This document shows positions 62-23,160 of a stretch of DNA of 23,160 nt, piece by piece. Every line of letters begins with the position of its first letter. Position 1 is the first letter of the stretch. The DNA lies in the IMG/VR virus record IMGVR_UViG_3300017782_000235, positions 1 to 23,160 of that record. One strand, given 5' to 3'. A model generated the notes under the pieces. That model saw only the letters and a program-made list of their open reading frames with translations, was not told the origin of the DNA and did not search any database. This DNA is from a virus. The position numbers were made by a program, and so were the translations under genes.

Positions 62-226
62 TTACTTGTTTTTACTTTTCCAATTGTAAAGTTTGAAAAG
101 TGAAATCGATATTGCAAGGACTAAAGATATAAAAGTAAGATACTCATTACAATCAGTTATGGATAAGCCTATAGCTCCAGCATTAGGTATTATTACCTCG
201 AGTGTGTCTTTTATGTCGCTATCCAT
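62..226 (-). CDS. Small membrane protein, holin-like (54 aa)
   Basis: A 54-aa frame starting MDSDIKDTLEVIIPNAG. It has a hydrophilic N-terminal half, one predicted membrane segment at about residues 29-46 (YLTFISLVLAISISLFKL) and a short basic tail (YNWKSKNK). This size and layout (single membrane span, charged C-terminus, next to virion genes) suits a phage holin or another small lysis or membrane protein. That role is inferred; no enzymatic or family motif proves it. It ends 14 bp before the next late gene and starts 6 bp after the stop of the structural protein gene, so it is very probably co-transcribed with both. Confidence 0.62.
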   Translation of the reverse strand: MDSDIKDTLEVIIPNAGAIGLSITDCNEYLTFISLVLAISISLFKLYNWKSKNK

Positions 227-232
227 TTTCAA

Positions 233-1048
233 TTAAAAGATTGCAATAGGTTTAACATCAGCATCTGTTCCAGTTGCCCACACTTTAACACACTGTACTG
301 GCAAATACTGTCCTACTGGAAAATTTTCAAATGTAATGTCTTGATTGTTTGCAGTGGTTACTTTAATATTTACAAACTGTTCTCCAAATGAAGATATAGT
401 ACCACCCCCACCTACATATATTAAAGCTGCACTATTAGCACTATTAACACTTAATGCTGCTGCATCTTGTGAATATATTTGATAAACATCATTTGCCGCC
501 ATTATACTTCCTCCAACACTTAACTGAGCATCATTAGTTACTGCTGTAACAAAATTTTGCGTTAAATCAGTTAAGTTATAAACTAAATAACCAACATTAA
601 TATCTAATCTGTTTATAAATCCGTTTTGTCTTAATATATAAGGCACATTATTACCAGCACCAACAGTATTATCTAAAGTAAGAGTGGTTGCGCTATCAAC
701 TGTAACTACGTGACCTGTAGTATTACCAGATGTTTCTTCTACTTGATTACCTACTTGAATAGCAAATACTTGTTGAGCTACCCCTGTTTGAGAATCGGCA
801 TCTAAAATGTAACTGTTTTTTTGAAAGTCTAGTCCAGTTCTTGAGTCTACTAAAAGATTCCCACCTCCTGCAGAGGTTGTTTGACTTGTAAAAGAGTTAG
901 AACAAGCAGATGTGTCTACTATAACTCCAGTTGCAGCTGAAGAATCTGTTCCTTGAAAAACTAATCTTCCTGGATTAGGGATATTATATGTGTCTGATTT
1001 TACAACTGGTATTGCAGACGGTGTATTTACTTGAATTTTTGAATACAT
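233..1048 (-). CDS. Probable virion structural protein (271 aa)
   Basis: The 271-aa product is rich in Thr, Val, Asn, Gly and Ala, poor in Lys, and has alternating hydrophobic residues typical of beta-rich phage capsid, decoration or tail proteins. There is no signal peptide or catalytic motif. The last ~45 residues (VNIKVTTANNQDITFENFPVG..., then VQCVKVWATGTDAD) look like the conserved C-terminal block of small structural proteins in many tailed phages, where a beta domain ends in a short hydrophobic strand. It lies between a holin-like gene and a set of tiny basic genes, consistent with the virion module. The exact role (decoration, head fibre or tail component) cannot be decided by eye. 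The composition contrasts sharply with its lysine-rich neighbours upstream. Confidence 0.7.
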   Translation of the reverse strand: MYSKIQVNTPSAIPVVKSDTYNIPNPGRLVFQGTDSSAATGVIVDTSACSNSFTSQTTSAGGGNLLVDSRTGLDFQKNSYILDADSQTGVAQQVFAIQVGNQVEETSGNTTGHVVTVDSATTLTLDNTVGAGNNVPYILRQNGFINRLDINVGYLVYNLTDLTQNFVTAVTNDAQLSVGGSIMAANDVYQIYSQDAAALSVNSANSAALIYVGGGGTISSFGEQFVNIKVTTANNQDITFENFPVGQYLPVQCVKVWATGTDADVKPIAIF

Positions 1049-1053
1049 ATTAT

Positions 1054-1230
1054 TTATTTATTATATGGAAACAATCTATTAAGTGTGTCTCTTCGTTCTG
1101 AACACCCACAGTCTTTTCCAGTTACTTTATTTACTTTATCAACTACGGCTTTTATTCCAGTAGCTTGAGTTATTTTGTGGATTGAATCTCCCAATCCTCT
1201 AGACTGAATATTTTTTCTATTTAGCTTCAT
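1054..1230 (-). CDS. Small conserved-looking phage protein, GLGD...DCGCSERR type (58 aa)
   Basis: I chose the ATG at 1228-1230; the longer frame to 1278 needs a TTG start and lies inside the neighbouring gene. The 58-aa product has a basic N-terminus (MKLNRKNIQSRGLGDS), a middle amphipathic stretch (ITQATGIKAVVDKVNKVTG) and a Cys pair in KDCGCSERRDTLNRLFPY. Similar short proteins with a GLGDxI...TGIK...CGC...LNxLFPY pattern are, from memory, common in marine phage late regions, without assigned function. It overlaps the end of the 51-aa gene upstream by 14 bp and ends 5 bp before the structural protein gene, suggesting translational coupling. Confidence 0.65.
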   Translation of the reverse strand: MKLNRKNIQSRGLGDSIHKITQATGIKAVVDKVNKVTGKDCGCSERRDTLNRLFPYNK

Positions 1231-1372
1231 CGATTTTATAACACTCACATACTTTATATGGGCAACTAGAAACCTCAAACATTAGTTTTGACATTAACCA
1301 GTTCCAAGCGCACATAAGTTTAGACCAATACTTTTGAATTATCATTCCTAAATTTACTAAAAACTTTCCCAT
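1217..1372 (-). CDS. Small Trp/Cys-containing amphipathic protein (51 aa)
   Basis: ATG at 1370-1372, TAG at 1217-1219. The product starts MGKFLVNLGMIIQKYWSKL. The first ~32 residues are hydrophobic/amphipathic with three Trp (QKYWSK, CAWNWL) and several Met. The tail SSCPYKVCECYKIDEAK has three Cys spaced CxxxxCxC. It fills an otherwise empty gap, ends 14 bp inside the next gene and begins 1 bp before the stop of the gene upstream. This tight packing is the main evidence that it is real. It may associate with membranes; function is unknown. Confidence 0.6.
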   Translation of the reverse strand: MGKFLVNLGMIIQKYWSKLMCAWNWLMSKLMFEVSSCPYKVCECYKIDEAK

Positions 1373-1573
1373 TTATTTTCTTATTAAAGAACCTAAGTGA
1401 GCGTGTACGTTTTTGTGATACTCCATTCCGTGGTTTCCACTATAAGCACGACCAGTCATTTTCTTTGCCATACCCTTACTTTCATCTCTACGTGCTTTCA
1501 TTGATTGAGATTTTTTTCCGTGCTTAGCACCTAAAGACTCATCTAAACGTGAATTATATCCTTGCTTTTTCAT
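1373..1573 (-). CDS. Small basic phage protein, unknown (66 aa)
   Basis: Very basic, hydrophilic 66-aa protein starting MKKQGYNSRLDESLGAKHGKK. It has repeated Lys/Arg-Ser-Met elements (SMKARRDESKGMAKKM) and a His-rich end (GMEYHKNVHAHLGSLIRK). It has no membrane segment or known catalytic motif. The stretch RLDESLGxKxGKKxQSMKxRRxES resembles short proteins I recall from many aquatic phage late regions; none has a known role to my knowledge. The charge suggests nucleic-acid contact, perhaps packaging or a minor virion component, but that is inference. Confidence 0.65.
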   Translation of the reverse strand: MKKQGYNSRLDESLGAKHGKKSQSMKARRDESKGMAKKMTGRAYSGNHGMEYHKNVHAHLGSLIRK

Positions 1574-1579
1574 AACTAT

Positions 1580-1744
1580 TTATTTTTTTTTATTTATTTT
1601 TCTCATATTCTTGGCGAAATTATATTTCTTCGACCCTTTAGGACAAGACTTGCTACCAAATTTTTTACCTGTGCAGTCACCTAAAGTTCCTTTTCGCTTT
1701 GCATTTGCAAAAACTTTTTGAATAAATTTTTTATCTTTCGCCAT
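1580..1744 (-). CDS. Small lysine-rich protein (54 aa)
   Basis: ATG at 1742-1744, TAA at 1580-1582. The 54-aa product starts MAKDKKFIQKVFANAKRKGT and contains two Cys (DCTGKKFGSKSC) and a C-terminal lysine run. It begins 24 bp downstream of a promoter-like TATCTTTG box (minus strand), so it is probably the first gene of a transcript. The MxKDKKFIQK start resembles other small phage proteins. Function unknown; nucleic-acid binding is plausible from charge alone. Confidence 0.62.
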   Translation of the reverse strand: MAKDKKFIQKVFANAKRKGTLGDCTGKKFGSKSCPKGSKKYNFAKNMRKINKKK

Positions 1745-1767
1745 AAATATCTAAATTATTTATTTGA

Positions 1768-1794
1768 CAAAGATAGTAATATTTTATTTTGCAA
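1768..1794 (-). promoter_or_regulatory. Minus-strand promoter, TTGCA-N14-TATCTTTG
   Basis: On the minus strand TTGCA (1790-1794) is followed after exactly 14 nt by TATCTTTG (1768-1775), matching the Bacteroidota -33/-7 pattern (TTG ... TAnnTTTG). The same boxes with the same spacing occur at 3023-3049. The box lies 24 bp before the start of the 54-aa gene and overlaps the 3' end of the 93-aa gene, so it gives an internal start in the late block. Confidence 0.6.
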
Positions 1795-1796
1795 TT

Positions 1797-2078
1797 TTAA
1801 CACTTCCAACGTCTCCTTGCTTGCCTAATTCTAGAGTTAGGGTCGTTTCTTGTAGCAGCACTACTTCTTTTAAGTTGACCTAAACTTCTAGCGCAATAAG
1901 ACTTTCTTCTTTTAGCAGCTTTACTGCCAGGCTTAACTTTTCCAGTAACAGCAGTTTTTAATTTACTACCAGGATTAGCTTTTCTATAAGCAGCTACACC
2001 TTTCTTAGTCATACCAGCGCCTTTTTTTGTAGGACGATAGTTTGCGTTTTTTCCTTTAGTAGTTTTTCTTATAGCCAT
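1797..2078 (-). CDS. Basic phage protein, AAYRKANPGSKLKTAVTG type (93 aa)
   Basis: A 93-aa strongly basic protein. It has a disordered Lys/Gly N-terminus, a central element TKKGVAAYRKANPGSKLKTA and VTGKVKPGSKAAKRRKSYCAR, and an end PNSRIRQARRRWKC. This order of segments (GMTKKGVAAYRKxNPGSKLKTAVTG ... RRKSxCAR ... RxARRRWKC) is one I recognise as widespread in tailed phages of marine bacteria, encoded near virion genes and usually annotated hypothetical. DNA contact or virion assembly is a reasonable guess from the charge. Its ATG overlaps the stop of the upstream gene by one base (TAATG), indicating coupled translation. Confidence 0.72.
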   Translation of the reverse strand: MAIRKTTKGKNANYRPTKKGAGMTKKGVAAYRKANPGSKLKTAVTGKVKPGSKAAKRRKSYCARSLGQLKRSSAATRNDPNSRIRQARRRWKC

Positions 2079-2308
2079 TACCTTACACCTTTAACATTTC
2101 TAACAAATTGTTTTCCTTTAGCTCCTTCTCTTTTCTTTTTCTTTGCCGTAGAGGCTAACTTACTTTTCGATAGTCTTCTAGCTTTAGCTAATGGTAGACA
2201 TCTGTCTGGGTTTTTTTTATTTTTACTTGTACCACAAGGACCTTTGATTTTACCATCAGTTCCAATACGTACCCATTTCTGGTCTCGCCATTTTTTTAAC
2301 TCACCCAT
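2078..2308 (-). CDS. Basic phage protein, KWVRIGTDGKIKGPCGTSK type (76 aa)
   Basis: The 76-aa product starts MGELKKWRDQKWVRIGTDG. It has a short ordered-looking segment with two Cys (GPCGTSKNKKNPDRCLP) followed by a Lys/Arg/Ala-rich helical tail (AKARRLSKSKLASTAKKKK). The segment WVRIxTDGKIxGPCGTSKxKKxPDRCLP recurs, from memory, in many phage proteins alone or in longer polypeptides. The paired Cys might bind metal or form a disulfide. It sits in the coupled small-gene run: its start overlaps the preceding stop by one base and its stop overlaps the next start. Function unknown. Confidence 0.72.
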   Translation of the reverse strand: MGELKKWRDQKWVRIGTDGKIKGPCGTSKNKKNPDRCLPLAKARRLSKSKLASTAKKKKREGAKGKQFVRNVKGVR

Positions 2309-2430
2309 TACTTCTTTTTGCCTTTCTTTTGTTTTTTCATTTTTAGAACTTTAAAATCAGCTCCTGTAATTTTATCAAAAGGCATAGCCATTCGTGCAAT
2401 CTTTCTTTGTCCTTTACTTAATTTACTCAT
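2308..2430 (-). CDS. Tiny basic protein (40 aa)
   Basis: ATG at 2428-2430, TAA at 2308-2310. The product starts MSKLSKGQRKIARMAMPFDK, continues ITGADFKVLKM and ends in KKQKKGKKK. The pattern SKLSKxQxxIAxxAxPxDKITGxDFxxL resembles a short phage protein seen in many late regions. Its TAA overlaps the following ATG by one base, and its ATG overlaps the preceding TGA (ATGA). That double coupling is strong evidence that so short a frame is real. Confidence 0.68.
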   Translation of the reverse strand: MSKLSKGQRKIARMAMPFDKITGADFKVLKMKKQKKGKKK

Positions 2431-2549
2431 TTCTTTTTCTTTTTAGGCATAGACTTAATCATCTTTTCAATTTTTGCAGCTTGTGCAGCGTGCATTTTAG
2501 AAGCACCTTTAAGCTGTTTTACAATTTCTTTCATTTTCATTACATTCAT
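2427..2549 (-). CDS. Tiny Lys/Met-rich helical protein (40 aa)
   Basis: ATG at 2547-2549, TGA at 2427-2429, with a 4-bp ATGA overlap to the next gene. The product starts MNVMKMKEIVKQLKGASKMH. Heptad-like spacing of hydrophobics through AAQAAKIEKMIKSM suggests a single amphipathic helix with a polylysine tail (PKKKKK). It uses TGA as a true stop, which matters for interpreting the TGA at 8969-8971. Function unknown. Confidence 0.66.
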   Translation of the reverse strand: MNVMKMKEIVKQLKGASKMHAAQAAKIEKMIKSMPKKKKK

Positions 2550-2551
2550 AT

Positions 2552-2710
2552 CTATTTCTTTTTTGAGCCTTTGGCGTAGTTAGGGTCTTTACAATATTTA
2601 CTGGCAGCCATATTTGCGTATGCAGAAGGGTATTTATCAAAAGTTCTTTTCGCCCAAGCAATTCCTGCTGGACAAATTTTATTACTTTTTTTAGTTCTAC
2701 CTTTAGCCAT
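2552..2710 (-). CDS. Small basic protein, KICPxG...FDxYPSAYA type (52 aa)
   Basis: ATG at 2708-2710, TAG at 2552-2554. The product starts MAKGRTKKSNKICPAGIAWA and continues KRTFDKYPSAYANMAASKYC. The pattern KICPxGxxxAKRxFDxxPSAYAxxxAxxxC is familiar from many phage hypothetical proteins, where the two Cys and the aromatic FDxYPSAYA core are the conserved part. It probably forms a small folded unit. It is coupled to the upstream gene by a TAATG overlap. Function unknown. Confidence 0.7.
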   Translation of the reverse strand: MAKGRTKKSNKICPAGIAWAKRTFDKYPSAYANMAASKYCKDPNYAKGSKKK

Positions 2711-2820
2711 TAGTATTTTTTACTTTTTCTTACTTTTAATCCTTTTTTCTTTGCTGCTTTTTTAGCTGCTGCTTTTCCTTTTTTAGTATAAGCGTATGTT
2801 TTTTTTCCTACTTTAGGCAT
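2710..2820 (-). CDS. Tiny Lys/Ala-rich protein (36 aa)
   Basis: ATG at 2818-2820, TAA at 2710-2712. The product begins MPKVGKKTYAYTKKGK, continues with an AAAKKAAKKKG helix and ends KVRKSKKY; about 40% of residues are lysine. It overlaps the upstream gene by 8 bp and its stop shares a base with the next start (TAATG). The composition resembles histone-tail or protamine-like DNA-binding peptides; packaging or condensation of phage DNA is a speculative role. Confidence 0.62.
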   Translation of the reverse strand: MPKVGKKTYAYTKKGKAAAKKAAKKKGLKVRKSKKY

Positions 2821-3007
2821 AATTTGGTTTTTTAGTTATGGGTTTCTTTTTATATTTCTGAGCAAAAGAATTTAATCCTTTCAACTTTCCTAAACCGTGA
2901 ATAATATTTTTCTTTGGTTTAGTTTTTTGTTTAGTACTTTTCTTTTTTTTAGCTACTTGAGCCTTGTAAGTTTCTAAATAGTTTAATGAATTATTTTCTG
3001 TCGCCAT
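2813..3007 (-). CDS. Lysine-rich small protein, first gene of the small-gene run (64 aa)
   Basis: The 64-aa product has an acidic/neutral start (MATENNSLNYLETYKAQ) and then a long lysine-rich segment (KKKKSTKQKTKPKKN, later KYKKKPITKKP) around a short GLGKLKGLNSFAQ motif. It is probably largely disordered. It starts 16 bp downstream of a TATCTTTG promoter box and leads the coupled run that continues to 1797. Function unknown; nucleic-acid binding is likely from composition. Confidence 0.66.
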   Translation of the reverse strand: MATENNSLNYLETYKAQVAKKKKSTKQKTKPKKNIIHGLGKLKGLNSFAQKYKKKPITKKPNYA

Positions 3008-3022
3008 TTTTTATTATTTTTA

Positions 3023-3049
3023 CAAAGATACAAATTAAATAAAATGCAA
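3023..3049 (-). promoter_or_regulatory. Late-type minus-strand promoter TTGCA-N14-TATCTTTG, overlapping a divergent start codon
   Basis: On the minus strand TTGCA (3045-3049) and TATCTTTG (3023-3030) are 14 nt apart, identical in boxes and spacing to 1768-1794. The -33 box overlaps the plus-strand ATG at 3044-3046 of the winged-helix-like gene. It probably drives the small-gene run. Confidence 0.62.
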
Positions 3050-3475
3050 ACAGACTATTTAAAATACTGGCGAGTAATACGCTATTACGTTAAGGCTAAG
3101 TACAATATAAGCACTGGAGAGTTAGATATGTTGTTATTTCTTTACTCAGAAGATTATTTTAGTAAAGATAAATTTAACGAGTTTGATGAGCTACTAAGTT
3201 GGAACGTGAATAGATTTGATAAGCTTTTAAGAGATGGATGGATAGAAGTGTTTCGTAAACGTGCTGGCAAAACAAAAGGACTATACGAATTATCATACAA
3301 ATCTAAAAGAATGATTAACTCTATTTATAAAAAATTAAATGGAGAAGAAATACCTAGTTCAGAACACAACCCTATTTTTCATAGAAATGTAAAATACACC
3401 GATAAGGTTTATAGAAACTTTATAAAAGAAATGAATAAAACTATAAAACTACAACAACGTCTCTCTCAGAAATAA
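3044..3475 (+). CDS. Winged-helix-like DNA-binding protein, putative regulator (143 aa)
   Basis: The product looks mainly helical with a likely wing. LKYWRVIRYYVKAKYNISTGELDMLLFLYSEDYFS resembles the first helices of MarR/PadR-like winged-helix proteins. It is followed by a probable recognition segment (FDELLSWNVNRFDKLLRDGWIEVFRKR) and the strand-turn-strand expected for a wing (GKTKGLYELSYKSKRMINSIYKKL). The C-terminal ~40 residues are basic and helical. The family assignment is by pattern only. It is the only plus-strand gene among the left-end minus-strand genes. Its start codon lies within the -33 box of the opposing promoter, so binding near its own gene could control the late small-gene run. 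It converges with groES, overlapping its 3' end by 35 bp. Confidence 0.6.
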   Translation: MQTDYLKYWRVIRYYVKAKYNISTGELDMLLFLYSEDYFSKDKFNEFDELLSWNVNRFDKLLRDGWIEVFRKRAGKTKGLYELSYKSKRMINSIYKKLNGEEIPSSEHNPIFHRNVKYTDKVYRNFIKEMNKTIKLQQRLSQK

Positions 3476-3698
3476 TGGTGCAAGGCTTGTTGTCAATTAA
3501 CATTGTATAGCCAGTTCGTGAATCAAAATATATAGTATCTCCTTTGTTTATATTTTTAACCTCAGTGCCTGGTGCAATAACTATTGCTTTTCTATATCTT
3601 AGTTCATCAACATCTTTATCAGATAAAATTAATCCAGAGTCTGTTACTATTTCTTCCTCAACAATATTTATTGCTATATATTTATTTATTGGCTTCAT
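3441..3698 (-). CDS. groES: GroES-like co-chaperonin (Cpn10), phage-encoded
   Basis: The 85-aa product has Cpn10 features in order: N-terminal strand MKPINKYIAINIVEEE, a mobile-loop region carrying the GroEL-contact-like hydrophobic triplet (VTDSGLILSDK, LIL in place of the usual IVL), a middle RYRKAIVIAPGTEV (GxVxAvGpG equivalent), NINKGDTIYFDSRTGYTM (vkvGDxVlf equivalent), and the end TIISERDVVVVL (yliv.e.DILaiv equivalent). E. coli GroES is 97 aa; the roof-loop region is short here. I chose the ATG at 3696-3698; the longer frame to 3707 begins with TTG. It overlaps the groEL 3' end by 17 bp, so both are translated from one leftward message. The product should cap the GroEL ring while a phage or host protein folds. 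Confidence 0.88.
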   Translation of the reverse strand: MKPINKYIAINIVEEEIVTDSGLILSDKDVDELRYRKAIVIAPGTEVKNINKGDTIYFDSRTGYTMLIDNKPCTIISERDVVVVL

Positions 3699-5331
3699 CA
3701 GATTCAAATGTTCTTGCCATAGTGATTATAGCATTAGTACTTAGTATAGTTGTAGCCACAGATACTGCGTTTTGTAATGCGTGCTTTGTAACTTTCATAG
3801 GGTCAATAACCCCCATATCTAATAAGTCACCATACAATTCATTTTTCACATCATAACCGTGTGCAGGATTTACAATATCTTTATATATTTCATCATATTG
3901 TAGACCTGCGTTTCTTAAGATTTGATTTATAGGAGCTGTTAATGCTTGTCCTAAAATTGCGTAAGCAATTTTTTTTGAATTTTCAAGTGGTTTATAATCC
4001 TCGTCTTTATTATTTTCAGCTATAGCCCTATATGCTTTAGCGATATTGTTTAAGGCAGTTCCACCCCCAGGCAGTATCCCCTCTAATAAAGCAGAGCGAA
4101 CAGCACATACAGCATCGTCTACTCTATCATAAAGTTCTTTTTGTTCAATTTCAGTTTGACCCCCTACATTAATAACACCTATTCCACCTGTCAAAGATGC
4201 GATTCGTGTAGATATAAAGTCTTTATCTGTTTTAGAAGTAGCATTTTTATGAGCATCCCATAGCTCCTCTACTCTTTTATTAACCACATCTTCATCCACA
4301 TCTTTATCTTTTATTATGACTGTTGAGTCACGTCCAACTATCACCTTGGCTGCGTGACCCAAATCATTAAAGTTTATTAAACTTAAATCATCACCAGTCT
4401 TTTCTGAAAAGTATGTAGCGCCAACTGATATTGCAATATCTTGCATTAACTCGTGCTGCTTATATCCAAACTGTGGGGGATTAATATTACATAACTTAAG
4501 TCCGTTCTTAACTACGTTAGCAGCTAATGTATTAATTACATTATCACTACAAGGACAAATAAGTAATAGTTTTTTTCTTTCTTGAATTATTGGTTTTAAA
4601 ATATTCTCAATGTTTAATATATTATCAACCGATGCGTCAGACACTAATATATAAGTATCTTCAAGAACACACTCATCTTTTTTCTGGTCATTAATAAATA
4701 ATGGAGAATTGTATCCTCTTTCAACTTTAATACCGTTAGTAATATCACTATACGTCTCGCTAGTCTGTGAACGTTCTACAGTTACTATTCCTGTTTTACC
4801 AACTGTGTTGTATGTTTTAGCAATAGTATTACCAATCTCTTTGTCTCCGTTAGCAGAAATTATAGCAACATCCTTAAGCCTTCTTTTAGATATTGGCTTT
4901 GACATACTCTTAAGTTGAGTAATAATTGGATTTACTTCATTATTAATAATCTTTAATATTTCTGTTCTATTGTCTGTATCTTTAATTAAATAATTTCCAG
5001 ACTTAACTAAAGCTTCTGTCAATACAATTGCTGTTGTGGTTCCATCTCCAGCCGATGTAGCTGTTTTGTCTGCAGCCTCTTTCATCATACGTACTGCTAA
5101 ATTTTCTACAGGATGCATTAGGTCTACAGCTTTTGCAACCGTAACTCCATCTTTCGTTATAGTAATTCCTTGTGTGTGATTTGGTGATTCAATAAGAACA
5201 GTATGTCCTCTTGGACCCAATGTACTTTTTACAGCATCAGCAATTTTACTTATTCCATTTATTAATGAGTTTCTGCCTTGAGTTCCAAACTTAAGGTCTT
5301 TGGGAGAGTAACCTCCAACTGGTGGATTCAT
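3682..5331 (-). CDS. groEL: GroEL-type chaperonin (Cpn60), phage-encoded (549 aa)
   Basis: Full-length group I chaperonin, 549 aa against 548 in E. coli, in the cytosolic folding-chamber family. Nucleotide-binding motifs are intact: LGPRG (38-42), KDGVTVAKAV (60-69), GDGTTTA (95-101) and the hydrolysis-site Asp in RVDDAV (Asp406, matching GroEL Asp398), followed by EGILPGGGTAL. The apical domain is recognisable (CVLEDTYILVSD...PPQFGYKQHELMQDIA), as is the C-terminal DPMKVTKHALQNAVSVA. The Gly-Gly-Met tail is missing; the protein ends TFESDEANK. Asn/Lys/Ile-rich composition matches the window. groES follows and overlaps it, the reverse of the usual bacterial groES-groEL order. It has its own promoter (5356-5385). 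It probably folds capsid or other virion proteins, as phage chaperonins are known or presumed to do. Confidence 0.93.
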   Translation of the reverse strand: MNPPVGGYSPKDLKFGTQGRNSLINGISKIADAVKSTLGPRGHTVLIESPNHTQGITITKDGVTVAKAVDLMHPVENLAVRMMKEAADKTATSAGDGTTTAIVLTEALVKSGNYLIKDTDNRTEILKIINNEVNPIITQLKSMSKPISKRRLKDVAIISANGDKEIGNTIAKTYNTVGKTGIVTVERSQTSETYSDITNGIKVERGYNSPLFINDQKKDECVLEDTYILVSDASVDNILNIENILKPIIQERKKLLLICPCSDNVINTLAANVVKNGLKLCNINPPQFGYKQHELMQDIAISVGATYFSEKTGDDLSLINFNDLGHAAKVIVGRDSTVIIKDKDVDEDVVNKRVEELWDAHKNATSKTDKDFISTRIASLTGGIGVINVGGQTEIEQKELYDRVDDAVCAVRSALLEGILPGGGTALNNIAKAYRAIAENNKDEDYKPLENSKKIAYAILGQALTAPINQILRNAGLQYDEIYKDIVNPAHGYDVKNELYGDLLDMGVIDPMKVTKHALQNAVSVATTILSTNAIITMARTFESDEANK

Positions 5332-6414: not shown

Positions 6415-7062
6415 ATGAGAAATTTATTAAACAATGAAAACGAAATGCTACAAAGTAGTAGTATTTCAACACTATTTTCAGAAGTACAAAACATAACAAA
6501 TCTTTTGGAAAATGCTTATAAATCAAAATTAACTACAAAAATTGAACTAGGTAAAAAAGCAATTTTATTCAAAAAATGGTTGAAATCTGATGAAGCTACA
6601 AACTTATTTGAAGATAATATGCTCGAAAAATGGTCCATCGATGAAATGAGTTTAAAGATATTTTCGGTAAAGCAAAGCCAATTAAATCGAATGATTAAAG
6701 CTAGCAAATCAGAATCAAAACTAGATTTATATTTAACTAGCTGCGAAGAATCTGAAGCTAATGGTAAAAATGTTATTCGTTCAGTAGATAACTTTAACAA
6801 ATTTGTTAAGTCACTAGAGGTAACTGAAGAAGCGGAAGCGGAAGCAACAATACCAACAGTTTTTACTCTAGCTTTTAAGATTAAAGAATTTGATTTTGGA
6901 GCGAATGCGGAGCGCAATATTTCGGTTAGAATTAACGAAAATATGGAGTTAATCACAAAAAACTCAGTTGAGGAAATCCAAAAAGCTATCGATTTTTTAA
7001 GCGCAAAACTTGAAAATCCAATAGCTAGTGAAACATTCACTGCACTAGATATAGAATCATAA
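6415..7062 (+). CDS. Hypothetical protein, first gene of amidoligase operon (215 aa)
   Basis: I do not recognise a named family. The N-terminal two-thirds look helical. Residues ~42-96 (KIELGKKAILFKKWLKSDEATNLFED... then WSIDEMSLKIFSVKQSQLNRMIKASK) resemble the arrangement of phage DUF3102-like or other helix-turn-helix proteins, with SIDEMSLKIFSVKQSQLNRM as a possible recognition region. A Glu/Ala-rich linker (EEAEAEATI) leads to a C-terminal domain with predicted beta strands (TVFTLAFKIKEFDF, ERNISVRINENMEL) and a final helix. Its ATG follows an A-rich leader. It ends 27 bp before the amidoligase, and one terminator (8202-8231) follows both, so they form a two-gene operon. A reverse-strand frame over the same DNA is Ser/Phe/Leu-rich and treated as a shadow. 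Confidence 0.65.
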   Translation: MRNLLNNENEMLQSSSISTLFSEVQNITNLLENAYKSKLTTKIELGKKAILFKKWLKSDEATNLFEDNMLEKWSIDEMSLKIFSVKQSQLNRMIKASKSESKLDLYLTSCEESEANGKNVIRSVDNFNKFVKSLEVTEEAEAEATIPTVFTLAFKIKEFDFGANAERNISVRINENMELITKNSVEEIQKAIDFLSAKLENPIASETFTALDIES

Positions 7063-7089
7063 TAATTAACTAATAAAACAAATAAAAAA

Positions 7090-8181
7090 ATGTCAAAATT
7101 AAACGGTATAAAATATGAGCAGCAAAGCGCAAGCGCTCTTAATCAAAGAGGGGATACAGTGCGCAGAAATATAGTAGCTCATTATCATCAAGGATGTATC
7201 GGTACAAAGTTAAACTTTACTAGATACAAAATTGATTTAAAAGGTCTGAACAAAAAACAAATTCAGACAAACATAACTAGAACTTTAGAAAGCGGAGAAA
7301 ATGTGTATACTAGTAAATTTGCTATCGGTTTTGAGATAGAGAAAAACACACTATCTAGAGAGGTTTTGAGCGGTAACAGAACGTTAATAGGTTTATTCCC
7401 AACACTATTCAGCGCTATCGAAAATGATGGCTCAGTTGCTCACAATGGTTCAGATGGTTATGAAGCAATAACAAACATATTGCCGCTAATACCATCTAGC
7501 AAATGGAGAAACAAAATCTTTAATTTAATGCACGAAAGTAGATATTTTATTGAAGAAGAATTCTCTAGTAGTAATGCTTTTTACAATAATGCATTCAAAT
7601 GCGGTGGTCACGTTTCTATCTCTAGCAATGATTATGGTGACTCAAAACATTTTTTAAATGCAATGAGACCATATCTAGGTATCGTATATGCAATGAACAG
7701 AAAGAGATTAGCTAACAGATATTGTCTAGGAAATATAAATTGTCCAATTAACCCTACCGATGCTATCACTAGGAGAGATAACAAGTATAATGCAATTCAG
7801 TTGAAATCTCATGGAGTAGTAGAGTTTAGATTATGGAGCAGAGTAACTAGCGTAAATCAATTAAAAAACCGATACGCTTTAATGCACGAAATCGCGCAAG
7901 CTAGTAAAACGTTAATATCTAAAAATGCTTTTAATAGTCGTATACGACCAATTGTAATGCGAATGTATAACAATGATGCTGCAAAAGTAGATATGCTTTT
8001 TAAACTAGCTAAATCATTTGATAAGATGTTAACTAAAAATTTAATGGATGAGAATGTAATACCTTTCATATACTCTTATTATAATAACGAATCGAATGGT
8101 ATAGCACAAAGACTATTCACTCAGAAAGCATACAGAATGTGGAAAAGAAGTGAAGTTAAATTCAGCGAAATGGTTGGTTGA
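7090..8181 (+). CDS. Putative COOH-NH2 amidoligase, glutamine-synthetase-like fold (363 aa)
   Basis: The product matches the signature order of the amidoligase (Amidoligase_2-like) family of ATP-dependent carboxylate-amine ligases. FAIGFEIE (77-84) is the usual GxExE metal/ATP strand, here ending in FEIE. ENDGS (111-115) is the DxS motif. CGGHVSIS (171-178) is the CGxHVH-type motif, with Ser in place of the second His. RYC (210-212) and VEFRLWSR (244-251, the ExR motif) follow. These residues are expected to bind ATP/Mg and the carboxylate. The C-terminal ~100 residues are helical. The enzyme should form an amide bond between a carboxylate and an amine. Nearby GAT-II and cyclotransferase domains (8618-9703) fit a combined pathway. 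The substrate is unknown. The palindrome GTCGTATACGAC lies inside the gene. Confidence 0.72.
   Translation: MSKLNGIKYEQQSASALNQRGDTVRRNIVAHYHQGCIGTKLNFTRYKIDLKGLNKKQIQTNITRTLESGENVYTSKFAIGFEIEKNTLSREVLSGNRTLIGLFPTLFSAIENDGSVAHNGSDGYEAITNILPLIPSSKWRNKIFNLMHESRYFIEEEFSSSNAFYNNAFKCGGHVSISSNDYGDSKHFLNAMRPYLGIVYAMNRKRLANRYCLGNINCPINPTDAITRRDNKYNAIQLKSHGVVEFRLWSRVTSVNQLKNRYALMHEIAQASKTLISKNAFNSRIRPIVMRMYNNDAAKVDMLFKLAKSFDKMLTKNLMDENVIPFIYSYYNNESNGIAQRLFTQKAYRMWKRSEVKFSEMVG
7937..7948. repeat. Palindrome GTCGTATACGAC inside amidoligase gene
   Basis: Second copy of the 12-bp core palindrome; followed by CAAT as at the 6211 copy. It encodes residues around SRIRP of the amidoligase, so the sequence is both coding and a possible binding site. 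Confidence 0.55.
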
Positions 8182-8201
8182 TTTATCAGCAAACTAATAT
8201 T

Positions 8202-8231
8202 AAAAGGAGCGCTTATGCGCTCTTTTTTTTT
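8202..8231 (+). terminator. Strong Rho-independent terminator of the amidoligase operon
   Basis: GAGCGC (8207-8212) and GCGCTC (8217-8222) form a perfect 6-bp GC-rich stem with loop TTAT, preceded by AAAAG and followed by nine T. It lies 20 bp past the amidoligase stop and separates it from the glutamine amidotransferase unit. Confidence 0.88.
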
Positions 8232-8290
8232 GCCCTAAATTAAAGTTTTGTGCAGTTATGCTGCATAATCTTAGGTAGATTTAACAGCGA

Positions 8291-8322
8291 CAGCAGACAG
8301 CCAGCAGACACCAGCAGACAGC
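8291..8322. repeat. CAGCAGACA short tandem repeats
   Basis: CAGCAGACA starts at 8291, 8302 and 8312, giving periods of 11 and 10 bp (about one helical turn). The segment lies in the non-coding stretch upstream of the GAT-II promoter. Confidence 0.6.
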
Positions 8323-8323
8323 C

Positions 8324-8357
8324 AGTCAGAAAAGTTGACTAGTCAGAAAAGTTGACT
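8324..8357. repeat. Perfect 17-bp tandem repeat, each unit a small inverted repeat
   Basis: AGTCAGAAAAGTTGACT occurs twice back to back (8324-8340 and 8341-8357) with no mismatch. Each unit has arms AGTCA/TGACT, so the pair could bind two dimers or form paired hairpins. Confidence 0.7.
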
Positions 8358-8427
8358 ACCTGTAACAAAAATAACAGGTAAGCAGGAATGCCCATTTGGG
8401 GTAATCAATACCCAATGCGGGTAATTG

Positions 8428-8454
8428 TTTGATGTTGATGTTTGATGTTTGATG
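8428..8454. repeat. TTTGATG tandem repeats
   Basis: TTTGATG at 8428, a 6-nt variant TTGATG at 8435, and TTTGATG at 8441 and 8448. A simple short tandem repeat of about 7 bp in the non-coding region. Confidence 0.55.
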
Positions 8455-8470
8455 TTTTGAAAAATCAAGG

Positions 8471-8503
8471 TTGGGTACGATGTCGTATCTTTTTGGGTAC
8501 GAT
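8471..8503. promoter_or_regulatory. Direct repeat TTGGGTACGAT x2 with TACGA/TCGTA inverted repeat
   Basis: TTGGGTACGAT at 8471-8481 and 8493-8503 are 22 bp apart (two helical turns). Between them TACGATGTCGTA (8477-8488) repeats the TACGA/TCGTA half-sites of the GTCGTATACGAC palindrome. The position, 28-54 bp upstream of the -33 box at 8531, suggests an operator for the GAT-II promoter. Confidence 0.55.
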
Positions 8504-8530
8504 AGTATATCTAAAATAATGTGTATATCA

Positions 8531-8562
8531 TTTGGCTATGTCTAATTAATGTCTTATCTTTG
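8531..8562 (+). promoter_or_regulatory. Promoter TTTG-N20-TATCTTTG for GAT-II/GGCT
   Basis: TTTG (8531-8534), 20 nt, TATCTTTG (8555-8562). The spacer shares the blocks ATGTCTAA and TAATGT, at the same offsets, with the promoter at 10568-10599, so the two are clearly related copies. The GAT-II ATG is 56 bp downstream of the -7 box. Confidence 0.75.
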
Positions 8563-8617
8563 TGTAATAATCAGAGGTCAGCGGATACAATATCTACTCC
8601 TCACAAACAAAAAAACT

Positions 8618-8971
8618 ATGTGTATAATAATTGTAAAGTCGAAAGACAAGAAAGTATCGCAATCAGTTTTGCGAACATCATCCTTAATAAACCCTCACGG
8701 ACTAGGTGTAATATGGCTAGATACTAACGAGGTTAACTATCATAAATCAAAAGAGTGGTCGGTACTAGATACAGACAGACCATACATCGCTCATTTCAGA
8801 TATGCTACTAAAGGTAAGATTAACAGAGAGAACACCCATCCATTTGAATGCGGTAATAACTCTAATGAACTACTAATGCATAATGGAACTTTGCTAGGCT
8901 ATGGCTCAAAAGATTTATGTGATAGTAAGCAGCTAGCTAATGAACTAGGACACAGACCACGACACCAATGA
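8618..8971 (+). CDS. Class II glutamine amidotransferase (GAT-II), N-terminal part of an interrupted fusion
   Basis: Starting at 8618, the product begins MCIIIV. Cys2 is exposed after Met removal and is the expected Ntn-hydrolase nucleophile, with III replacing the common GI(x). Further GAT-II motifs: NPHGLGVIW (25-33), AHFRYATKG (58-66, the HFRxATxG substrate-binding motif), NTHPF (72-76) and MHNGTL (87-92, the oxyanion-forming HNG). Such domains release ammonia from glutamine. The frame stops at a TGA (8969-8971) after 117 residues, whereas small GAT-II domains usually run to about 150 or more. The expected end (HDSRFVSYN...DGVWYS) is encoded in the same frame after the TGA. An upstream ATG at 8549 lies inside the promoter and is ignored. 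See the findings for the TGA. Confidence 0.8.
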   Translation: MCIIIVKSKDKKVSQSVLRTSSLINPHGLGVIWLDTNEVNYHKSKEWSVLDTDRPYIAHFRYATKGKINRENTHPFECGNNSNELLMHNGTLLGYGSKDLCDSKQLANELGHRPRHQ

Positions 8972-9703
8972 AGAGAAATTCTAGGTCAGCACGATTCTAG
9001 ATTCGTATCTTATAACAAGCGCAATAGACAATATCAAATCTATAACAAAAATCTTTGGACACAAAAAGATGGTGTATGGTATTCAAAGACTAATGTGTTA
9101 CAAGACAATATTGTAGCGGTGTATGGTACTCTTAAAAAAGGTTACTCTAACAATAGTATGTTAAGCGGCTCACGATACGTAGGTAAGGGAACTACTCTTG
9201 ATAAATACCCTTTAGAGGTAAGCGGTCTTCCTTATCTACACGATGTAAAAGGTAGCGGCTACAATGTCGATGTACATATATATAAGGTAAGCGACAACGT
9301 ACTTAAAAATCTTGATTCACTTGAAGGACACCCTTATCACTACAAACGTAAAGAGATAATGATTAAGCGCAAGAAAGGTCAGATTAAATGTTGGGTATAC
9401 TTTATACAGACAAGACCATATTCAAACCATATGAACTGCATACAAAGTTACAAGCAAGAGAGACCAAGCACGAACTATAGAGGCTCCTCTTATCCTTATA
9501 ATTTCTTTCGTAACGAATACTATAAACCAAGCTATACTAAACGTATAACTGATTTTTATTCTTCTGTAGAGGCAGACCAAGAAGAAAGATATTGCAGCAC
9601 TTGTATGGTAGAGGTCAAAACAGATGTACACGAGATTAGTGATTCAAAATATTATTGTGAGATTTGTTGCAACCATTTCACAGAAAGCGAAGTAATGAAA
9701 TAA
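8972..9703 (+). CDS. Gamma-glutamyl-cyclotransferase-like domain plus zinc ribbon, C-terminal part of the same frame
   Basis: This frame is continuous with the GAT-II frame except for the TGA at 8969-8971. It opens with the missing GAT-II end (REILGQHDSRFVSYNKRN, then DGVWYSKTNV). From about 9104 comes an AIG2/GGCT-like domain: NIVAVYGTLKKG (the YGTLxxG motif), LPYL, and LDSLEGHP, whose Glu is the expected acid/base of cyclotransferases. CWVYF closes the barrel. A Tyr/Ser-rich linker leads to a C-terminal zinc ribbon, CSTC...CEICC (9595-9674). The first possible start is a GTG at 9095; there is no in-frame ATG before the YGTL motif. So this part is probably expressed only as a fusion, or is inactive. 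Cyclotransferases act on gamma-glutamyl amines, releasing 5-oxoproline and a free amine. Confidence 0.72.
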   Translation, partial: REILGQHDSRFVSYNKRNRQYQIYNKNLWTQKDGVWYSKTNVLQDNIVAVYGTLKKGYSNNSMLSGSRYVGKGTTLDKYPLEVSGLPYLHDVKGSGYNVDVHIYKVSDNVLKNLDSLEGHPYHYKRKEIMIKRKKGQIKCWVYFIQTRPYSNHMNCIQSYKQERPSTNYRGSSYPYNFFRNEYYKPSYTKRITDFYSSVEADQEERYCSTCMVEVKTDVHEISDSKYYCEICCNHFTESEVMK

Positions 9704-9723: not shown

Positions 9724-9776
9724 GGGGAAGTTTATTGACATTTTCTTCCCCTTCTGTTCGGTAGTGTGTACTACCG
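9724..9776 (+). other. Two perfect adjacent hairpins in the 124-bp gap after the GGCT gene
   Basis: GGGGAAG (9724-9730) pairs with CTTCCCC (9745-9751), 7 bp with a 14-nt loop. CGGTAGT (9759-9765) pairs with ACTACCG (9770-9776), 7 bp with loop GTGT. Neither has a good U-tract, so these could be an atypical terminator, an RNA processing or stability structure, or a protein site. Confidence 0.5.
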
Positions 9777-9827
9777 CTGATGATTCGAAAACGATGAAAC
9801 AGATACACAAACTTAAAAACAAATAAT

Positions 9828-21403: not shown

Positions 21404-21540
21404 GATTTTTTGAAACTACCTTTTTTAGGACGTTTGTTTTTAAATCCATCAGTTGCGTAGTATAACTTTACTTGCGCTTCAGTAAACGTTCTTCCACTTG
21501 GACTTTTATATTTATTTTTTCCTATTTTTTTAAAAGGCAT
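21400..21540 (-). CDS. Tiny basic phage protein (46 aa)
   Basis: ATG at 21538-21540, TAA at 21400-21402. The product starts MPFKKIGKNKYKSPSGRTFT, continues EAQVKLYYATDGFKNK and ends in a Lys-rich tail. The KKxGKxxYxSPSGRxFTxxQVKxYYAT pattern resembles other small phage proteins of the late block. It begins on the last base of the large virion-type gene upstream (stop/ATG overlap of 1 bp), so it is coupled to it. Confidence 0.65.
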   Translation of the reverse strand: MPFKKIGKNKYKSPSGRTFTEAQVKLYYATDGFKNKRPKKGSFKKS

Positions 21541-23160
21541 TACCTAGTATTTTGTTTACTCTTACCTCTTCTTTGATTTTGAATTTGCTTGCTTCTTGTA
21601 TTTACGCTAGGAGTACTATTAGTTTTGCTTTTAGTATTCTTTTTTCTAGAAGGTCGCATATCTTTTGGGAATGCTGTTGGCGCTCCTCCAAAAAATAACC
21701 ACATATTATATGCAAAGTACTCTTCACTCGTAGCCATTTCATATGCTGATTCAAACGGAGTAAACTGAACACCAATTAAAAACTGCATTAATTCATATGG
21801 TATAGCTACCGCAGGACTTACATCTCCTAGCGGACCTTTACCAGTTACTGCTTCTCCATAAGACTGAGCAAACTCAGTTAATGGATTAGTTATCGGTGAG
21901 TTTGGATTTTTATATTCTCTGTCATCACGTATATTTTCATAAGTCTGTATAGCCTCCATCAATCCAGGTATTGAATTTAAAATTGCTATCATTCCATAGT
22001 ATTGAGTAATTCTTCTTATAAACTCATCTTCATCTTTTTCGTTACCAAATAATAACATAATGTTACCTATTACTGCAAAGAAAATAGAAGCTATAGCTCC
22101 ATTAAAAGGCGCTCCTCTTACGTCTTTCATATCTGGAGTTTTGTTTTGAGCTATATCTTTTGCAATATTGGATACGTGAAAATAAAAATTACTAGTATAC
22201 TGCATAGGTGAGCTTGTAAATGCAGTAAATGTTCTAGCTAAACCACTTTTAGCAGTTTGAATACCTGCTTTATCAATACCTCTTCTACTTTGATTAGTTA
22301 AGTTATAATCATTAAATACTCTTAACGCATCTTCGTGAGAAAACCCTTGAGCAATTAATTCGTCATACACCACTAAGTAACCAGTAACACCAGCTATATC
22401 ACCTACGCTTGTAAAGTAACCAAATGCCGATTGTAATATTTGAAAAGAATTACTAAATTTTTTAAAACTTTCTGGTAATCCTACGTCTTCACGACCACTG
22501 TATAAAGAGTATATATTACCTTCTTTTTGCTCAAGTATTCTAGATTTTAAAGTAGCTGATATCCTTTCCATCTTAGCAACTGTTTCTTTAGCGTTAAGTG
22601 GATTTAAATATTTTGCAGCTTTTAAATTAAACTCTGCAAATGTAGCAGCTTCACTTGGAACATTACTAAGAATTTGACCTATCAGTTCTGGTATTTGAGA
22701 AATAACGCTTCTATCTTTTTCAAATATAGGGTCTCCTTTTTTTCTTTTTTGATAAATAGAATATTTACCAGCAGTATATAAAGGATATGCCAGTATGTAT
22801 GAAGACGCTTGTTTTGGTATCTGCATAGCTTTTAACCCTAAATAATAACTAGTCATTAGTTGGGTCGCTTGACTAACCCATTTTGCTTTGTCTTCACCTC
22901 TTGTAACACCTCTTGGGTCTAGTCCTACATTAATATTATAAGTTAAAATATTTTTCATACCAGATGCTTCAAGTAATGCCTTAACAGATGGTATTCTTAA
23001 TAGTTGTTCGATTATTTTAGCTGGTTCTGCAAAAGCCTCATATCTGGAAACCTCATCCATATAATTATCTAGCACTTCAAAAAAGTCTAATCCCAACAAC
23101 ATTCTTAAGTCTTCTTCTTGTTTTGTTCTTTCAGCAAAACTATTAGGAGAGAAAGCATTA
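21540..23160 (-). CDS. C-terminal part of a very large virion-associated protein (partial, 539 aa visible)
   Basis: The frame is open to the window edge at 23160, so the true start lies outside. An ATG occurs at 23100-23102 but the reading frame continues upstream (...AERTKQEEDLR), so it is internal. The visible part is long, mostly helical, without catalytic motifs. Residues ~335-352 counted from that ATG (GAIASIFFAVIGNIMLLF) and ~369-385 (YGMIAILNSIPGLMEAI) are hydrophobic, possible membrane-inserting helices. The end is a basic, Ser/Thr/Asn-rich disordered tail (RKKNTKSKTNSTP...). This matches the C-terminal part of the giant phage internal-virion or polyvalent proteins that follow DNA into the host. 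The assignment is by architecture only. Confidence 0.6.
   Translation of the reverse strand, partial: NAFSPNSFAERTKQEEDLRMLLGLDFFEVLDNYMDEVSRYEAFAEPAKIIEQLLRIPSVKALLEASGMKNILTYNINVGLDPRGVTRGEDKAKWVSQATQLMTSYYLGLKAMQIPKQASSYILAYPLYTAGKYSIYQKRKKGDPIFEKDRSVISQIPELIGQILSNVPSEAATFAEFNLKAAKYLNPLNAKETVAKMERISATLKSRILEQKEGNIYSLYSGREDVGLPESFKKFSNSFQILQSAFGYFTSVGDIAGVTGYLVVYDELIAQGFSHEDALRVFNDYNLTNQSRRGIDKAGIQTAKSGLARTFTAFTSSPMQYTSNFYFHVSNIAKDIAQNKTPDMKDVRGAPFNGAIASIFFAVIGNIMLLFGNEKDEDEFIRRITQYYGMIAILNSIPGLMEAIQTYENIRDDREYKNPNSPITNPLTEFAQSYGEAVTGKGPLGDVSPAVAIPYELMQFLIGVQFTPFESAYEMATSEEYFAYNMWLFFGGAPTAFPKDMRPSRKKNTKSKTNSTPSVNTRSKQIQNQRRGKSKQNTR

Follow-up and report, generated by a model that had tools for sequence, protein, structure and literature searches.

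A two-gene phage module predicted to act on gamma-glutamyl amides lies in the window analysed here, a linear virus-record fragment of 23,160 bases with 32% GC (IMG/VR record IMGVR_UViG_3300017782_000235, positions 1 to 23,160). Computation shows that the module encodes a predicted glutamine-synthetase-fold ligase together with a predicted bifunctional enzyme, in which a class-II glutaminase (GAT-II)/gamma-glutamyl-amide hydrolase is joined to a cyclotransferase of the GGACT type. The module is tentatively read, at somewhat less than even confidence, as a compact set for gamma-glutamyl amide chemistry whose likeliest target is the cell wall and whose fused enzyme is made through readthrough of a UGA codon. 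An earlier note, made from the sequence alone, had placed three activities in three genes and had called such a phage pathway unfamiliar. There are two genes, as glutaminase and cyclotransferase are fused in all intact relatives, and a cassette of amidoligase, GAT-II and GGCT has already been published in podophages, of which the module is a reduced, compact and divergent variant.

The first gene (7090..8181, + strand) encodes a divergent carboxylate-amine ligase (amidoligase) of 363 residues, recognized by its fold, profile comparison and motifs. Its sequence has no match in Pfam, NCBIfam or the PDB, but each of its motifs, FEIE (81), ENDGS (111), CGGH (171) and EFRL (245), falls in conserved columns. 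Across a 20-member family alignment (A2), E111, D113, S115, E125, C171-G172-G173-H174 and R206 are invariant and E82, E84, E245 and R247 nearly so. The AlphaFold (AF2) model of the protein reaches a predicted TM-score (pTM) of 0.83, and all 13 of its PDB matches at E<=0.001 are glutamine synthetases or gamma-glutamylmethylamide synthetase. The YbdK carboxylate-amine ligase matches the model at Z 9.1, and the BFVD structure matches include annotated phage amidoligases. TM-scores against the PDB entries are low (0.3), and therefore indicate a shared core rather than close kinship.

Profile-profile comparison with proteins of Pfam family PF12224 (Amidoligase_2) gives E=3.3e-6 (prob 88), with the GxExE, DxS, GxHhh and EFR motifs in register. 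At its gathering cut-off PF12224 matches none of the 20 family members, the nine related virus genomes or the related phage genome MW202828, and the PHROG amidoligase family is matched by one of the 20, at 8e-4. In phage C75C1, a true PF12224 amidoligase is followed after ∼0.9 kb by the same fusion gene, and this shared context links the divergent ligase with the established family. On these model and profile comparisons the protein is a predicted glutamine-synthetase-fold carboxylate-amine ligase related to, yet outside, Amidoligase_2. The earlier amidoligase call for this 363-residue open reading frame is thus upheld by motifs, fold and profile match alike, and structure prediction returned the glutamine-synthetase-like fold that the note had proposed to look for.

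The second gene (8618..9703, + strand) spans 361 codons with one in-frame TGA. It is a single unbroken reading frame in 80/80 of its best relatives and a single 405-residue protein in MW202828; these 80 are the matches nearest the fusion query, and rates based on them are valid for that clade. The N-terminal class-II glutaminase (Ntn) part (8618..8968, + strand) opens with ATG-TGT at 8618, which sets the catalytic cysteine at position 2 and replaces the start at 8549 of the earlier gene model. It carries the HFRYATKG and HNG motifs, has GATase_4 (PF13230) as its best Pfam match at E=1.3e-6 and matches the structure 3mdn. Cys2, the arginine of HFRYAT (R61), N89-G90 and D102 are invariant across the fusion family (alignment A3).

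Further along lies the GGACT domain (9113..9418, + strand), with a YGTL loop and the catalytic glutamate in LEGHP. It scores E=3.5e-20 against the GGACT/AIG2 family PF06094 and about 1e-15 to 5e-18 against the profile of human and mouse GGACT, and its invariant LEGHP glutamate aligns with GGACT Glu82, the residue that is Gln in 3jud. Both of the domain assignments first proposed, glutaminase and cyclotransferase-like, are therefore retained. A Cys-rich tail (CxxC ... CxxC; 9593..9670, + strand), zinc-ribbon-like in the alignment and present in most of the fusion relatives too, may bind zinc. GGACT acts on gamma-glutamyl amines, epsilon-(gamma-glutamyl)lysine among them, and sets 5-oxoproline free; its substrates are small gamma-glutamyl amines, not intact proteins. 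A GGACT-type active site indicates gamma-glutamyl amines as the predicted substrates of the fusion, and narrows the substrate search to this class of compounds. Among cellular genomes the full fusion was matched once, on a 56-kb contig of a Cytophagales metagenome-assembled genome; as the same contig carries a phage primase, it is probably a binned phage.

The two genes belong together. In 72 of the 80 fusion loci the ligase precedes the fusion gene in the same orientation, at a distance of 64-4,900 nucleotides, and the other eight loci stop within 2.5 kb; every ligase locus with sufficient downstream sequence also has the fusion. The association of the module genes exceeds chance, and the co-occurrence of domains that the earlier note had proposed to look for is seen in all testable relatives.

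In the window, the glutaminase and cyclotransferase reading frames share one frame and are parted by a single TGA (8969..8971, + strand). The GTG at 9095, previously taken as the start of a separate cyclotransferase, is merely the first start codon past it. The TGA occupies a near-invariant tryptophan codon, Trp being found in 14/15 other aligned members of the family. It is common to all seven contigs of the lineage, namely the window and its six near-identical or sister contigs in IMG/VR (L001-L006), which makes sequencing error an unlikely origin. The 117 residues ahead of the TGA amount to a truncated glutaminase domain, and the window can form the complete Ntn domain of its relatives only through readthrough of the TGA. 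The lineage's fusion might be a recent pseudogene, with the ligase alone still mattering: the TGA cuts off the GGACT domain entirely, together with the latter half of the glutaminase fold, a search for a suppressor tRNA in the phage found none, and there is no global recoding.

With two lineages compared, the pattern of substitution makes decay of this kind improbable. The TGA is shared with a diverged lineage, that of L004, whose ligase is 88% identical to the window's, and between the two the ratio of nonsynonymous to synonymous change is low on either side of it. Upstream there are 12 synonymous changes and one nonsynonymous change. The 41 codons from the TGA to the first possible restart, a run without ATG, GTG or TTG, hold four synonymous changes and one nonsynonymous change (binomial P=0.005). 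The GGACT part has 13 and five, and the entire part of the fusion past the TGA 17 and six (P=2e-8). Because codons past the TGA evolve under protein-level constraint, readthrough is suggested, and low-level decoding of UGA as Trp in this lineage is the simplest reading of the substitutions. A global reassignment of TGA to Trp was rejected: TGA ends the ligase gene, the window's genes contain 52 TGG codons, and coding coverage gains nothing specific to such a code. A further in-frame TGA was noticed in a 307-residue virion-type gene (L038:13818-14744, - strand) of the 42.9-kb sister contig IMGVR_UViG_3300025120_000140. It is not a conserved second case, as 97%-identical contigs have TTA there, and is probably strain-specific or an error.

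A framework for the function of the module is provided by the podophage "peptidoglycan modification cassette", which comprises an amidoligase, a GAT-II and a GGCT, with an ATP-grasp protein and a second ligase in addition (PMC5498523, PMC11945000, PMC6256558, PMC10580990). Later papers credit it to Iyer 2009 and Hardies 2013. It occurs in phiRIO-1, PSA-HP1, the LUZ24/PaP3/tf/UFV-P2 phages and phiEco32 (PMC5498523, PMC3890496), and its proposed role is to modify peptidoglycan against superinfection or in readiness for lysis (PMC5498523, PMC11945000, PMC6256558, PMC10580990). UFV-P2 and MW202615 both carry a COOH-NH2 ligase, an amidoligase, an ATP-grasp protein and a GGCT, and a GAT is annotated in UFV-P2.

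In the tentative main reading, the ligase of the window would use ATP to activate a carboxylate, most likely the gamma-carboxylate of glutamate, as an acyl phosphate, and would then join this to ammonia or an amine. The ammonia would come from the glutaminase domain, unless that domain trims gamma-glutamyl amides, and the GGACT domain would release as 5-oxoproline those gamma-glutamyl groups that are in excess or of host origin. A cell-wall peptide or wall precursor, changed early in infection, would be the likeliest target, and in the window's lineage the full-length bifunctional enzyme would probably be made at a reduced level, with UGA read as Trp. Besides the folds and motifs, the co-occurrence, the C75C1 context, the GGACT-type active site and the constraint past the TGA, two observations favour this scheme: the module adjoins replication genes, as the published cassettes do (PMC5498523), and the multi-gene cassette of UFV-P2 and MW202615 represents the same chemistry. 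The cycle of ligation and decapping outlined in the earlier note, in which a glutamine-derived group is attached to a carboxylate and a gamma-glutamyl cap later removed, is plausible, and is strengthened because the cyclotransferase is GGACT-like.

Several points weigh against the wall-directed reading and its readthrough component. The wall target is taken from the literature, where it is likewise a prediction. A search with the ATP-grasp protein of MW202615 found no counterpart in nine related virus records or MW202828, and recovered the UFV-P2 control; Pfam PF13535 was uninformative for this purpose, as it missed known positives too. The second ligase of the cassette, COOH-NH2_lig (PF14395), was likewise not found in the relatives searched, with the UFV-P2 and MW202615 controls positive. 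As these two published parts were sought and not found, the module is a reduced variant and its pathway therefore cannot equal that of the published cassette. Because GGACT and EgtC-type activities are catabolic, the fusion may merely degrade. The case for readthrough is based on few substitutions in two lineages, and folding around the TGA revealed no recoding RNA structure beyond chance (z near 0).

The same enzymes could instead run a small-molecule capping cycle like PuuA/PuuD or the IpuC/IpuF pathway of isopropylamine, in which the ligase puts glutamate on an amine and the GAT-II/GGACT enzyme uncaps it, which would allow the phage to detoxify a host amine or polyamine or to make use of it. 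Such a cycle would suit the nearest solved folds of the ligase (glutamine synthetase, gamma-glutamylmethylamide synthetase and YbdK) as well as the GGACT-like active site of the fusion and its match to GATase_4, a family that resembles EgtC/YafJ-type hydrolases, and glutathione-like peptide metabolites have been proposed for ligases adjoining GAT or Aig2 genes (Iyer 2008; PMC2588565). It is nevertheless rather unlikely here, as no catabolic gene, such as one for an amine oxidase or a transporter, was recognized alongside (although most conserved neighbour families have no assigned function), and a futile cycle would require control of timing or compartment.

A third possibility involves the conserved 215-residue family encoded directly upstream of the ligase (6415..7062, + strand). 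This partner was found in 72 loci, within 119 nucleotides of the ligase start in 66/72; alongside the most distant ligases (L020, L021, L023, L025 and L026) no copy was found. Being so tightly linked, it could be an adaptor or substrate for a ligase that modifies proteins of the host or virion by adding glutamate or an amine to their carboxylates, with the fusion reversing the modification. The release of 5-oxoproline by GGACT from compounds such as epsilon-(gamma-glutamyl)lysine fits this idea, but its preference for small gamma-glutamyl amines over intact proteins does not, and no protease or tag protein was recognized nearby; protein modification is accordingly considered the least probable of the alternatives, and a long shot. 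We infer that a cell-wall peptide remains the first candidate target, ahead of small amines and then of proteins.

The AlphaFold model of the partner (predicted local distance difference test score, pLDDT, 88) combines a helical N-terminal part with a small beta-beta-alpha C-terminal part. The partner has no Pfam or PHROG match and no clear PDB match. Its best structural match is P1 ParB, a DNA-binding protein with a helix-turn-helix and a small dimerization domain, at a Z of 4.5 only, a likeness too weak to use as an identity. Of what was first said of it, the open reading frame at 6415-7062 on the + strand stands, and the possible helix-turn-helix has this weak structural similarity alone behind it. 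A 574-residue coding sequence in MW202828 was considered as a fusion of partner and ligase and rejected, as its N-terminal 225 residues gave no match to the partner and the partner homologue is a separate gene. The module had also been described as an operon. This is probably not so, because a terminator-like hairpin followed by a T run (8205..8231, + strand; -15.6 kcal/mol, fold z=-3.85) separates the ligase from the fusion gene; L004 keeps both hairpin and T run with an altered loop.

RNA elements also mark the module. Starting 51 nucleotides behind the fusion gene is a type III hammerhead ribozyme (9754..9802, + strand) with an intact core, a GUU cleavage triplet and U-U at 10.1-11.1. Covariance model R1 scores it at 54 bits (E=2.3e-14); it is predicted to cut itself and is identical in L004 and L001. 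A 23-copy model, whose copies were gathered by core pattern with no requirement for pairing in stems I or II, recovered the three stems of this ribozyme type, its conserved core and its covariation: 100% of cells are paired, and 91 two-sided changes occur against 28.6 in shuffles. Rfam Hammerhead_3 matches lie behind the ligase of many relatives, reaching 49.2 bits. Across the 80 loci the model search yielded 148 copies, all on the sense strand, and a separate pattern count gave 131 on the sense strand and 0 on the other. By the pattern count, a hammerhead lies within 110 nucleotides behind 50/71 ligase genes, 33/79 fusion genes and 9/60 partner genes, and U-U or A-A at 10.1-11.1 is present in 24/33 copies behind the fusion gene vs 6/50 behind the ligase. 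Examples from the intergenic gaps of relatives are those at L058 4413-4462, 5327-5376, 7143-7191 and 7551-7599 and at L013 8999-9047. In the window itself the terminator-like hairpin stands behind the ligase in place of a hammerhead.

The window derives from a virus that infects marine bacteria. Its primase shares 69% identity with the one encoded by MW202828.1, a circular podovirus-like genome of 60.85 kb, with primases of Flavobacterium, Cellulophaga and Polaribacter phages as more distant relatives; because of this kinship the host is likely a member of the Bacteroidota. Replication genes adjoin the module on the right, and phage GroES and GroEL genes (3441-3707 and 3682-5331, - strand) adjoin it on the left. 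GroEL (56-67% identity) is found upstream of the module in most relatives whose sequence extends that far. At the far end of the window, a reading frame that runs off the end (21540-23102, - strand) resembles residues 3351-3806 of a 3,859-residue protein of MW202828 (L045 744-12320), which is probably injected or part of the virion.

Many phages carry the amidoligase cassette, and of the sets compared the two-gene version of ligase plus fusion enzyme, which has hundreds of environmental copies, is the smallest, so that it should be the simplest to rebuild and assay. More surprising than the enzyme module itself are the conserved TGA and the hammerheads, which lie in and behind the same genes and raise two separate questions about the post-transcriptional control of enzyme levels by phages. 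A broader and speculative scheme, which we hold to be improbable, would have a phage group of Bacteroidota run a dedicated gamma-glutamyl amide cycle, with the ligase and the bifunctional hydrolase/cyclotransferase, on a host target. Gene dose would be set at the RNA level, by fast ribozymes behind the ligase and mostly slower U-U or A-A variants behind the fusion gene, with UGA readthrough as a further means in one lineage.

Compared with known systems, the module shares with the podophage cassette a glutamine-synthetase-fold amidoligase, a class-II GAT and a GGCT set among early or replication genes. It differs in that GAT and GGCT are joined in one protein, the ligase lies beyond the reach of Pfam, the 215-residue partner is additional, and ATP-grasp and PF14395 genes are not detectable in phages of the window's type. 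The Amidoligase_2 proteins of C75C1 (WJE88166) and UFV-P2 (AFU62950) align with the window ligase over the four motifs given above, and that of C75C1 has the same neighbour gene, but the window's ligase family, unlike PF12224 members, scores no Pfam match. The YGTL loop and catalytic glutamate of human and mouse GGACT (A2LD1; PDB 3jub/3juc/1vkb) align with those of the fusion, whereas in the window the domain follows a class-II glutaminase domain and precedes a Cys-rich tail. Hammerheads flanking phage genes have been known since 2011 (Perreault et al., 2011; PMC3088659), and the type III ribozyme between genes of PaP3 (L295 45467-45419) has the same U10.1-U11.1 mismatch as the window copy, a variant reported to stay active (PMC3088659). 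In the window's phage group, by contrast with those earlier cases, hammerheads recur immediately downstream of the amidoligase and fusion genes, and within a limited check of the literature this fixed placement is new.

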